IMG/VR virus record: IMGVR_UViG_3300037247_000749
Span: 1-46,398 of that record
Source of the DNA: a virus
Length of the DNA stretch: 46,398 nt
Direction: 5' to 3' (one strand)
The position numbers were made by a program, and so were the translations under genes. Of the stretch, positions 5,731-37,063 are shown piece after piece (positions within the stretch are counted from its first letter, which is position 1; each line of letters opens with the position of its first letter). The notes beneath the pieces were generated by a model. That model had not been told where the DNA came from. It did no database searches and was given only the letters and a program-made list of their open reading frames with translations.

Positions 5731-5994
5731 ATGAAAAACAAAAAATGGTATCGTTCGTTGACAATAATCTCCCAGATAGCAATTATGTTCCTTATCGGGT
5801 TGAGTGTATGGATGCTAATGAGTATCCCTCCGCTTGATTATGACTTTTCGACTGAGGAGCTATGCGATTGGGCTTATGCAACTTCCCGAAATCAGAGGAT
5901 ATTGATACTGCAAATGCTTATCGTGAGTTTTGCGTTGGTAGGCATTTATGGCCGTAAGAGGGCGAAAGGGGGGATAGGTAAACATGAAGAATAG
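5731..5994 (+). CDS. Small two-helix membrane protein, holin candidate
   Basis: ATG at 5731 is chosen because AGGAGAAAGGAG lies just upstream; an earlier in-frame start exists but is less well placed. 87 residues: a basic N-terminus, TM1 at about 8-31, an acidic loop containing Cys, TM2 at about 57-74, and a charged tail (RKRAKGGIGKHEE). This is the layout of class II holins with both ends in the cytoplasm. It sits among tail genes rather than next to an endolysin, so other membrane roles are possible. Confidence 0.4.
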   Translation: MKNKKWYRSLTIISQIAIMFLIGLSVWMLMSIPPLDYDFSTEELCDWAYATSRNQRILILQMLIVSFALVGIYGRKRAKGGIGKHEE

Positions 5995-7072
5995 AATAAA
6001 GCAATTTATTTTAGTATCAGTAGTATTTTGTATTTTCGTGTCAGTAGTTTTTGGCGCATTCGACAGAGACAAACCGGCCTCGTCAACTTCGTTACGAAAT
6101 TCCAATCCCCAGATACTCGCTAACTGGTCTGCGTTGGAAGACGGAATAGGCAGGGAGCACAGTTTTCTTACTGGCGGGGCTGTCGCGGCACAAGGCGAAC
6201 ATACGCAGGGTTCCGCTAAAGCATTTTCGCAGGCTTCTGCGCCAACTACTCAGGTTGACGGTGGTGCATTCGCCGCTACTGACCTTGGTTCAATTTGGGT
6301 CGATACCGATGATAACGCTGTTTATATCCTGACCGCAACTACTCCTACGTGGACGGCTATCTCGACAGAAATTATTACGACATTGTTGGGCTCGGCAAGA
6401 GTTTTTGGCAGTACATTGGGCGTAACTGGCGATTTTGCGGTCAATACAAATAAGTTTACAATAGCGGCCGCAAGCGGAAACACTCTTGTTGCAGGAACAT
6501 TTGAAAGCACGGGTGTTACTACGTTAGCAGATGCTTCGGTTACAAAGACTACTGCCGCCCCTGGTGCTGATGCACAGATAGCCAACAAGAAATATGTTGA
6601 TGACACGCCGCACACAGGGGGTTCTGTTCAAGTTGTTAATACTCAAACAGGAGCAGTAGCAACTGGAACAACAATAATGCCTTTCGATGATACAATCCCT
6701 CAGAATACCGAAGGTGATGAGTATATGACTCTTGCTATCACACCAACTAATGCCAGCAACAAATTGAAAATAGAGATTATCGGTCATTTTTCAGAAAATA
6801 CAGGAGGTAACACCATTATAACAATGGCGTTGTTCCAAGATGCAACAGCTGGAGCTTTGGCTGGCACTTTTAGTCAGAATGGCACAACCTTTCCTGAGCC
6901 TTCTATGCACTTCACACACTTTATGGCCGCAGGGACTACAGGTGAGACTACATTCAAAGTGAGAGCAGGCAGAAATTCATCAGGGACTACAACTTTTAAT
7001 GGTGTAGATGGTGCAAGAAAACTTGGCGGTGTAACATCTTCAAGTATAACAATAACTGAAATAAAGACGTGA
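5984..7072 (+). CDS. Fibre-like protein with signal peptide and C1q-like head
   Basis: 362 residues starting with a Sec-type signal (MKNRIKQFILVSVVFCIF, ending in VVFG). Near residue 200 is ANKKYVDD, a motif widely shared by phage tail fibres and present again in the 1059-residue fibre at 9489. The last 140 residues (MPFDDTIPQNTEGDEYMTL...NKLKIEIIGH...GGVTSSSITITEIKT) match the compact beta-sandwich, C1q/TNF-like heads that end many phage fibres and bind receptors. It overlaps the preceding membrane gene by 11 bases. The signal on a fibre is odd. Confidence 0.6.
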   Translation: MKNRIKQFILVSVVFCIFVSVVFGAFDRDKPASSTSLRNSNPQILANWSALEDGIGREHSFLTGGAVAAQGEHTQGSAKAFSQASAPTTQVDGGAFAATDLGSIWVDTDDNAVYILTATTPTWTAISTEIITTLLGSARVFGSTLGVTGDFAVNTNKFTIAAASGNTLVAGTFESTGVTTLADASVTKTTAAPGADAQIANKKYVDDTPHTGGSVQVVNTQTGAVATGTTIMPFDDTIPQNTEGDEYMTLAITPTNASNKLKIEIIGHFSENTGGNTIITMALFQDATAGALAGTFSQNGTTFPEPSMHFTHFMAAGTTGETTFKVRAGRNSSGTTTFNGVDGARKLGGVTSSSITITEIKT

Positions 7073-17914: not shown

Positions 17915-17925
17915 GGTAACGGTGT

Positions 17926-17998
17926 CGCGGGATAAACTAACAGGTAGGTTGCCTGCCTCATAAGCAGGATAGTTTGGGTTCGACTCCCAATCCCGCAA
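17926..17998 (+). tRNA. tRNA-Met(CAT), initiator-like
   Basis: A full cloverleaf: acceptor CGCGGGA/TCCCGCA, D-stem AACT/GGTT, anticodon stem CCTGC/GCAGG with loop CTCATAA (anticodon CAT at 17959-17961), variable loop ATAGT, T-arm TTGGG-TTCGACT-CCCAA, discriminator A, CCA not encoded. Position 1 is C facing A72 (unpaired), and base pair 11:24 is A:T. Both are identity marks of bacterial initiator tRNA. The three G:C pairs that initiators carry at the bottom of the anticodon stem are not all present here (29:41 is T:A). It could therefore be an initiator variant; elongator Met or Ile2 are less likely given the C1 x A72 mismatch. Confidence 0.88.
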
Positions 17999-18026
17999 TT
18001 AAAGTATTTATTGAAAGGATAAGGAA

Positions 18027-34540: not shown

Positions 34541-34564
34541 TCATAAAAGTTAGCCAGCGCCCGG
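34541..34564 (-). repeat. Intercistronic element, copy 2
   Basis: On the minus strand the core GCGCTGGCTAACTTTTATGA is shared with the other copies. Here it also closes a hairpin with AGCCAG at the clamp-like gene's stop. Confidence 0.6.
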
Positions 34565-34580
34565 CAAGGGCTGTGACTGG

Positions 34581-35105
34581 CTAAGATGTTTCGTAATGAA
34601 TTATCGGCGGGGTAATTGGCATAATGACTGCTCTTTTACCTGTTTTGCTAACAAGCAATATCGGGCGGTCAGGTTCACCATAATAGACTTTCCAATCATT
34701 GCCGACTGCGGCTTCATGTATAAACTTTGGATTGTGCATCATTAGTTTAGCTGCTAATCCGTAAATAATCTTCATAGCGATAGTAATTTCACCGTAAGCG
34801 TCGTTAGCTTCAAAATAACTTTTGCGTTCCGGGATGATGTCCTGGTACTTTGGAAAGTGGCCGTCTTCAATCTTGAGCAAAACTACGCGGGACTGGTTGC
34901 AGACAACTACTTCATACATACCGGGCTCAAAATCATGCTGAATATCGGCAATATGAAGCCTTTTGCCATCGGTAGCAACAAAACGGCCTTTTTCAACCAA
35001 AATATTCTGGATTGCATATCGGCTGTTGTCTTTGGAGACTGCGCGGGCAACAAACCGGACACAATCTAACATCCGACGATTTACTTTTGGAATTTCGATT
35101 TTCAT
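34581..35105 (-). CDS. Short DnaN-like sliding-clamp protein
   Basis: 174 residues resembling DNA polymerase III beta clamps in order: VRFVARAVSKDNSRYAIQNI; FVATDGKRLHIADI (TDGKRL at 45-50, as in DnaN 'ATDGHRLA'); DGHFPKYQDIIP (81-92, as in DnaN 'GRFPDYRRVLP'); ITIAMKIIYGLAAKLM; and VIMPI near the end (160-164, as in 'YVVMPM'). A normal clamp is about 366 residues, so this is less than half. It looks like a middle domain joined to the last part of domain III. It may form a higher-order ring or interfere with the host clamp. Start overlaps the upstream stop (ATGA); good ribosome site. Confidence 0.6.
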   Translation of the reverse strand: MKIEIPKVNRRMLDCVRFVARAVSKDNSRYAIQNILVEKGRFVATDGKRLHIADIQHDFEPGMYEVVVCNQSRVVLLKIEDGHFPKYQDIIPERKSYFEANDAYGEITIAMKIIYGLAAKLMMHNPKFIHEAAVGNDWKVYYGEPDRPILLVSKTGKRAVIMPITPPIIHYETS

Positions 35106-35218
35106 TTTTCACCTCTGCTTTCATAAGTAAGCTGGACCGGGAGTTGAAACGCAGAAAAGGCTCGCGCCTGAATTGCCTCCCGGCCAGCTTTAGTAAGTTT
35201 ATTTGTTCTGCGTTTCAT
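35102..35218 (-). CDS. Small basic minus-strand protein (38 aa)
   Basis: First gene of the minus-strand block, coupled by ATGA overlap to the clamp-like gene. Basic and helical (RRTNKLTKAGREAIQARAF). A weak minus-strand promoter (TTGCAA 35248-35253, TAAGAT 35226-35231) lies so close that the transcript could be nearly leaderless. Confidence 0.4.
   Translation of the reverse strand: MKRRTNKLTKAGREAIQARAFSAFQLPVQLTYESRGEK
35121..35141 (-). repeat. Intercistronic element, copy 3 (divergent)
   Basis: On the minus strand CCCGGTCCAGCTTACTTATGA, followed by AAGCAGAGGTGAA, matching the copy 2 arrangement (AAGAGAGGTGAA). It overlaps the end of the 38-residue gene. Confidence 0.5.
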
Positions 35219-36778: not shown

Positions 36779-37063
36779 CTAAGGCGCAGCTTGTACGATA
36801 GCCATGTCAATTAGTCGGATAGCATTTTCGTGGATTTTAGTGCTACAGCCTGCTAATTCACCACGGCAGTAACGCAATACATCAAACATTTCGGGTGCAG
36901 CGGCCATGAGTTGAGCGTTAGCTTCCCATTCTTTTAGTCCGCATTCTAAGGGCGGCTTTAAAAGAGAGCTAAAGAGAGATAATTGCATCTCTCCTGCTAG
37001 GGTTACAATAGCGGTCAAGTTTGGTTCTGTTCGCACGCGCCATAGTCCTTTTGTATGGGCCAT
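36779..37063 (-). CDS. Common phage hypothetical protein (94 aa)
   Basis: Minus-strand ORF opening AHTKGLWRVRTEPN and containing EANAQLMAAAPEMFDVLRYC, the signature of a very common but uncharacterised phage protein family. Ribosome site GGAGAAC. Convergent with nothing nearby; it follows the excisionase-like gene in the same strand block. Confidence 0.7.
   Translation of the reverse strand: MAHTKGLWRVRTEPNLTAIVTLAGEMQLSLFSSLLKPPLECGLKEWEANAQLMAAAPEMFDVLRYCRGELAGCSTKIHENAIRLIDMAIVQAAP

Follow-up and report, generated by a model that had tools for sequence, protein, structure and literature searches.

The replication and repair enzymes of bacteria dock on one common pocket of the sliding clamp DnaN, which is also an antibiotic target, and the DnaN ring is closed by an interface with I78 and F106 on one side and I272 and L273 on the other, together with ion pairs (PMC11139829). 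Short DnaN-like phage proteins have already been named in databases, and in PMC8190038 a protein of Bacillus phage Sam46 is called a Pol III beta-type processivity factor. Examples in the BFVD structure collection are this Sam46 protein (217 aa) and proteins of Podoviridae sp. ctdDI2 (173 aa) and Xanthomonas phage Suba (222 aa). Escherichia coli makes a short clamp of its own, the UV-inducible beta*, which arises from an internal dnaN start and comprises the last two thirds of DnaN, counted from the N-terminus. Kazlauskas and Venclovas (2011) may also mention phage proteins that are short and Pol III beta-like. A further group, phrog_3007, is named 'RusA-like Holliday junction resolvase' in PHROGs, a label present in several Escherichia phage records; its member EP23p08, from the Shigella phage Dhillonvirus EP23, has two annotations in different records, a resolvase and a DNA polymerase III beta subunit or sliding clamp. 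The locus at 5926-6438 of NC_016566.1 (L071 5944-6456) encodes a short DnaN homologue of this RusA-labelled family. Our literature search, which covered titles and the beginnings of abstracts and had most subscription papers outside its scope, found no description of a pocket-only or domain-I-less phage clamp. A viral family that keeps the pocket and discards the ring would uncouple docking from sliding, would give a natural competitor protein for the DnaN pocket and would explain genes misnamed as Holliday junction resolvases, and the short length of the proteins makes the question directly testable. Here we analyse such a compact DnaN-like protein, encoded in the viral record IMGVR_UViG_3300037247_000749; the window is the whole stretch analysed, 46,398 nucleotides long.

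Methods

Relatives were collected with a nucleotide pattern in which DG[KHR]RL and FPxY stand at the compressed distance, which yielded L010, and with relaxed patterns, which yielded L013, L014 and L015. An alignment of five proteins, together with fishing for V[AG][TC]DG[KHR]RLH, extended the collection to 50 viral loci, and a tblastn search with one member led to annotated phages, EP23 among them. The short set comprises 23 proteins, namely those from viral contigs, with the window protein included, and EP23p08; duplicates (L012, L025, L027, L047) and contig-edge fragments (L049, L053, L061, L070) were excluded before alignment. Aligned with them were E. coli DnaN and 12 full-length phage DnaNs, while 13 full-length records were used in the counts of polymerases, second clamps and clamp loaders. 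The pocket was taken as the 18 DnaN residues listed in PMC11139829. Because the DG[KHR]RL, FPxY-type and V[AG][TC]DG[KHR]RLH motifs are conserved through selection by the search itself, the pocket test was rerun without positions 170-178. Neighbouring genes were surveyed on 21 ORFs picked by eye and no statistic is attached to them. The phylum for a scan of 150 genomes was chosen via L021, a metagenome-assembled genome titled Hyphomicrobiales.

Results

The minus-strand gene at the centre of this study and the features around it are listed in Table 1. In the translation the motifs ATDGKRL, FPKYQDIIP and VIMPI occupy residues 44-50, 84-92 and 160-164, respectively, so that the reading in the preliminary description of three motifs in DnaN order within 174 residues was exact. 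DnaN profiles also matched the protein: in PHROGs it matched phrog_3007 (E 1.3e-6) and the DnaN family phrog_947 (E 4.2e-6), and in NCBIfam DnaN (TIGR00663, E 4.7e-5), the latter at 22.5 bits, far under the curated cut-off of 137.65 bits. A sequence search of the PDB returned beta clamps as top matches (best E 0.0015), and a search of Pfam gave zero matches. Judged from these comparisons the clamp likeness of the ORF is beyond chance; the decisive support for a clamp comes from the fold and from independent relatives in which the motif order is compressed in the same way.

Table 1. Positions of the compact clamp gene, its parts and further features in the window
Feature	Position	Strand	Basis or remark
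Compact DnaN-like protein gene	34581-35105	-	174 aa, ATG start
RBS-like AGAGGTG	35110-35116	-	4 nt 5' of the ATG, by reading
Predicted leader hairpin 5' of the clamp gene	35129-35190	-	116-nt stretch, MFE -34.6, z -2.25
Residues 1-57, domain IIA, including ATDGKRLH	34935-35105	-	model secondary structure and alignment to E. coli
Residues 61-80, domain IIB remnant (two strands)	34866-34925	-	model and alignment
Residues 84-92, FPKYQDIIP, II-III linker	34830-34856	-	motif and alignment
Residues 94-118, domain IIIA remnant, helix 103-118	34752-34826	-	model and alignment
Residues 125-166, domain IIIB	34608-34733	-	model and alignment
GC-rich hairpin before the next ORF	34550-34584	-	z -2.28
Next downstream ORF, 89 aa	34257-34526	-	no family match
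ORF after that, 81 aa	34024-34269	-	phrog_4068, unknown function
Fourth minus-strand ORF, 124 aa	33625-33999	-	weak match only, phrog_2828, E 0.0033
94-aa protein with a perfect QLSLF	36779-37063	-	same strand as the clamp gene
Phage-borne tRNA-Met (CAT)	17925-17999	+	

The AlphaFold2 model of the window protein, built on an 18-row alignment, has a pLDDT of 84.7 and a pTM of 0.81, with the lowest certainty at residues 91-120. In Foldseek against the PDB the best 50 rows listed were all DnaN (best E 1.3e-6), with no RusA structure among these 50, and a fold unrelated to the DNA clamp, the outcome that the preliminary description had named as fatal to its clamp-like protein, did not arise. In several rows of VIA-align, residues 1-166 were superposed on domains II-III of E. 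coli DnaN (122-366), for example against 7azc_C (Z 13.5, rmsd 3.6, 163 residues), and the top row was Acinetobacter baumannii DnaN 127-381 (Z 14.8, rmsd 3.6, 156 residues). The L013 protein, from a phage that itself encodes a Pol III alpha, gave a similar model (pLDDT 86.5; top Z 14.6, rmsd 3.2, 157 residues). Since the two models agree with DnaN domains II-III, the protein, as modelled, spans the II-III junction rather than corresponding to one ordinary clamp domain.

Domain I is absent, the alignment covers only domains II and III, and both of these are partly trimmed, so that the three domains per subunit that are a trait of DnaN are not found in the 174 residues. The E. coli IIB stretch at about 193-220 and the IIIA stretch at about 269-309 have no counterpart. 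The earlier proposal of a fusion between domain II and the final part of domain III was therefore close, though what is joined is really IIA, a two-strand IIB remnant, the linker, a IIIA helix remnant and IIIB. All 18 pocket positions are filled, ten of them with the E. coli residue. They map to IIA (R152, L155, T172, G174, H175, here K, R176 and L177), to the linker (P242, R246, here D, and V247, here I) and to IIIB (N320, Y323, here F, V344, here D, V360, M362, P363, M364, here I, and R365, here T). The IIIA dimer-interface positions E. coli 272, 273, 298, 300, 301, 303 and 304 are filled in none of seven cases, and with domain I also missing the ring-closing interface of DnaN is lacking in this protein.

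The window protein fits a compact family that has no domain I and carries IIA, an FPxYxxVIP-type linker and IIIB in 168-272 aa. This is the size range of the short ORFs at the 50 viral loci, compared with 343-409 aa for the ordinary DnaN-like ones, contig-edge fragments being excluded; pairwise alignment of the L010 protein, of 175 aa, with the window protein gives 32% identity and shows the same motif order. The Pfam DnaN central domain, at E 0.01, was matched by only 3 of the 18 short proteins in alignment A4. In the tree, computed on 132 columns, 21 of the 23 short proteins cluster with a weak support of 42 and EP23p08 and L033 are placed elsewhere, a topology with which one main lineage plus separate reductions would possibly fit. 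All 23 proteins keep at least 84% of the IIA positions, the whole linker and at least 76% of IIIB, while IIB is kept to 6-91% and IIIA to 0-100%, and large parts of both are missing in most, where the losses as a rule take in the IIIA strand that closes the ring. L033 has lost IIB and kept IIIA; EP23p08 and L055 have lost IIIA and kept IIB wholly or partly. Values of 2-50% for domain I are taken to be scattered N-terminal matches.

Overall 132 of the 245 domain II-III positions are retained, and 21 of the short proteins fill all 18 pocket positions, the remaining two filling 17. A hypergeometric test of this retention gives 8e-6 on positions that are clustered; by circular shift, the fairer test, the observed value is reached in 7 of 245 shifts with the true position included. 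Outside the fishing motif the short proteins are identical to E. coli at 58% of 13 pocket positions and at 13% of 110 others. Full-length phage DnaNs behave similarly in the same comparison (71% versus 21%), and pocket conservation alone therefore does not tell a decoy from a working clamp. Each of the seven IIIA interface positions has an occupancy of 0.13-0.43 across the short family, the members that fill most of them being L033 (7 of 7), L059 (6) and L032 (5).

Close relatives of the window protein by its own sequence were not confirmed in viral_contigs or genome_contigs, and tblastn with it gave a best phage match at E 0.1 and a sole plasmid match at E 0.5. In the stretches examined of the terminase relatives L004-L009 no clamp homologue was present, and phrog_3007 was unmatched in these six records, which are fragments of 4.9-18.5 kb; for this reason the short clamp gene looks like an accessory gene. 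The compact pattern occurs in six stretches of genome_contigs, of which two are DnaNs truncated or internally deleted (L018 and L021); the translations of the other four are unlike clamps and were rejected. In L018, an Omnitrophota MAG, the dnaN frame has 203 aa and stops about 30 residues past ATDGKRL, through a frameshift or truncation. In L021 a DnaN of about 342 aa (positions ~375-1400) carries an internal deletion in IIB, where most compact clamps are trimmed as well; the deletion could be real or an assembly fault. Among the 150 genomes of one phylum the compact profile matched in 21, always in frames of at least 342 aa, and no compact copy was found.

That the phage is without a polymerase, as first described, held for the window in searches for families A, C and B (PF00476, PF07733, PF00136), none of which matched. 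On the plus strand the window encodes a replication-initiator-like protein, a RecE-type exonuclease, an Erf-like annealing protein and an SSB, a set of genes without a matched polymerase that suggests replication by the host polymerase. Four minus-strand ORFs follow a predicted hairpin leader, with the clamp gene in first place. After both this hairpin and the one before the next ORF there is a similar ATGAAAG...AGGTGAA leader, and the two may possibly represent a shared RNA control.

Neighbours of short clamp genes elsewhere include RuvB (L010), a RecE-like exonuclease (L022, L023), an SbcC-like protein (L030), and NinB and an anti-restriction protein (L043, L033). The RuvB homologue of L010 (3089-4120) begins directly 3' of the compact clamp stop and its N-terminus looks hydrophobic. 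A cognate peptide was sought within the window itself. The 94-aa protein with QLSLF was rejected in this role, one perfect QLxLF against 0.43 expected by shuffling not being above chance, and looser clamp-binding motifs (5 found, 3.6 expected) were set aside as evidence as well. No phage homologue of the 94-aa protein was found, and the strict clamp-binding-motif (CBM) pattern had no match at the C-terminus of the polymerases of short-clamp phages.

Discussion

In this study, we have characterized a family of phage proteins that retain the clamp pocket of DnaN and in which domain I and, in most members, large parts of IIB and IIIA have been lost. We give a probability of roughly one half to the interpretation that the window protein is a ring-less clamp-pocket module, which competes with host DnaN for proteins that carry a clamp-binding motif and acts as a decoy or an adaptor. 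According to this interpretation, one half each of domains II and III, together with the linker, would fold around the retained pocket for QLxLF-type CBM peptides, and the free pocket would bind such peptides of host replication and repair proteins away from the DNA ring, candidate partners being the clamp loader delta, Pol III, Pol IV/V, Hda, MutL and ligase. The traffic of partners on the host clamp would then be diverted or blocked, or one partner would be delivered to phage DNA. The affinity of delta for monomeric beta has been reported to be about 50-fold higher than for the dimer (PMC11139829), which makes strong competition by a ring-less pocket plausible. With ten identities in 18 pocket positions and the replacements of H175 by K, R246 by D and Y323 by F, the window protein may bind peptides weakly or in an altered way. 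A phage that has no polymerase of its own would also be harmed if all host Pol III were sequestered; for a phage relying on host Pol III a total blockade is unlikely, and it is more plausible that the protein competes selectively or serves as an adaptor. The suggestion in the preliminary description that the protein might poison or replace the host clamp thus survives in part, as competition for partners fits the kept pocket, whereas entry into the host ring does not fit the missing domain I and IIIA interface residues. We propose more tentatively that a clamp has been whittled down to its docking pocket, possibly repeatedly, and serves as a free decoy for which clamp loader and polymerases would leave the host ring in competition. 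If true, this would be a clamp mimic that acts via the common docking peptide and not on DNA.

A different view, in line with the ring of more subunits suggested in the preliminary description, is that several compact subunits close a ring and form a working mini-clamp, a processivity factor for host Pol III or for a phage polymerase. A polymerase is present in 6 of the 23 short-clamp records (four with PolA and one each with PolB and Pol III alpha) as against 1 of the 13 full-length-DnaN records, which would also fit a processivity role, and short clamps such as that of Sam46 have been annotated as processivity factors. In each of the 23 records, many of them fragments, the short clamp is moreover the sole one found: a search with the DnaN profile returned no second clamp gene, matching the compact ORF only in 14 and nothing in nine, and it found DnaN in all 13 full-length records. 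However, the window protein lacks domain I and the IIIA strand that closes the ring in DnaN, and in EP23 the short-clamp gene lies on the opposite strand, amid structural genes and far from the polymerase. A clamp-loader-type AAA+ protein was matched in just one of the 23 records (L010), and although PHROGs labels it a clamp loader this candidate is RuvB (PF05496 at 76.1 bits and PF05491 at 32.8 bits, both above cut-off). We hold a ring of compact subunits to be less likely than the free pocket.

It has also been considered whether the protein could be a monomeric processivity factor that holds DNA on a basic face, like the herpesvirus UL42, monomeric clamps of this type being described in PMC9690074. 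The helices are kept in part in the window and L013 models, and the short clamps are near neutral, with net charges of -6 to +7, while 12 of the 13 full-length clamps are acidic. On the retained columns, however, the mean charge differs little (-0.2 in short and -1.3 in full-length proteins), and the raised positive charge of a UL42-type factor is not seen, which leaves this explanation improbable. Insertion into the host DnaN ring as a poison subunit would be in keeping with the DnaN homology of the protein, but with both sides of the interface missing, domain I residues on the one and the seven IIIA residues on the other, we regard this role as highly improbable. That the protein is a RusA-like Holliday junction resolvase, as the label of phrog_3007 and one annotation of EP23 have it, is scarcely credible given the DnaN fold and given the reach of the phrog_3007 profile, which hits the AmM-1 phage DnaN at E 3.1e-17 and has matches in nine of the 14 control genomes; the PHROGs name is misleading and the family is one of short DnaN homologues.

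Compared with known systems, the window protein is like bacterial DnaN in its fold across E. coli 122-366, in its CBM pocket positions and in its motif order, and differs from it in having no domain I, in a IIB of two strands and a IIIA reduced to about a helix, and in its 174 as opposed to 366 residues. With phrog_3007 and EP23p08 (170 aa) it shares the short length, the absence of domain I, the succession of IIA, linker and IIIB and a pocket filled at 18 of 18 positions; EP23p08, however, keeps more of IIB and has no IIIA. The short beta-clamp-like phage proteins in the BFVD resemble it at a Foldseek E of 1e-3 or better, are of comparable length and carry a Pol III beta-like annotation. Like beta*, it is a clamp of domains II and III only, but in beta* these two domains are whole, whereas in the window protein both have been trimmed internally and the gene is viral.
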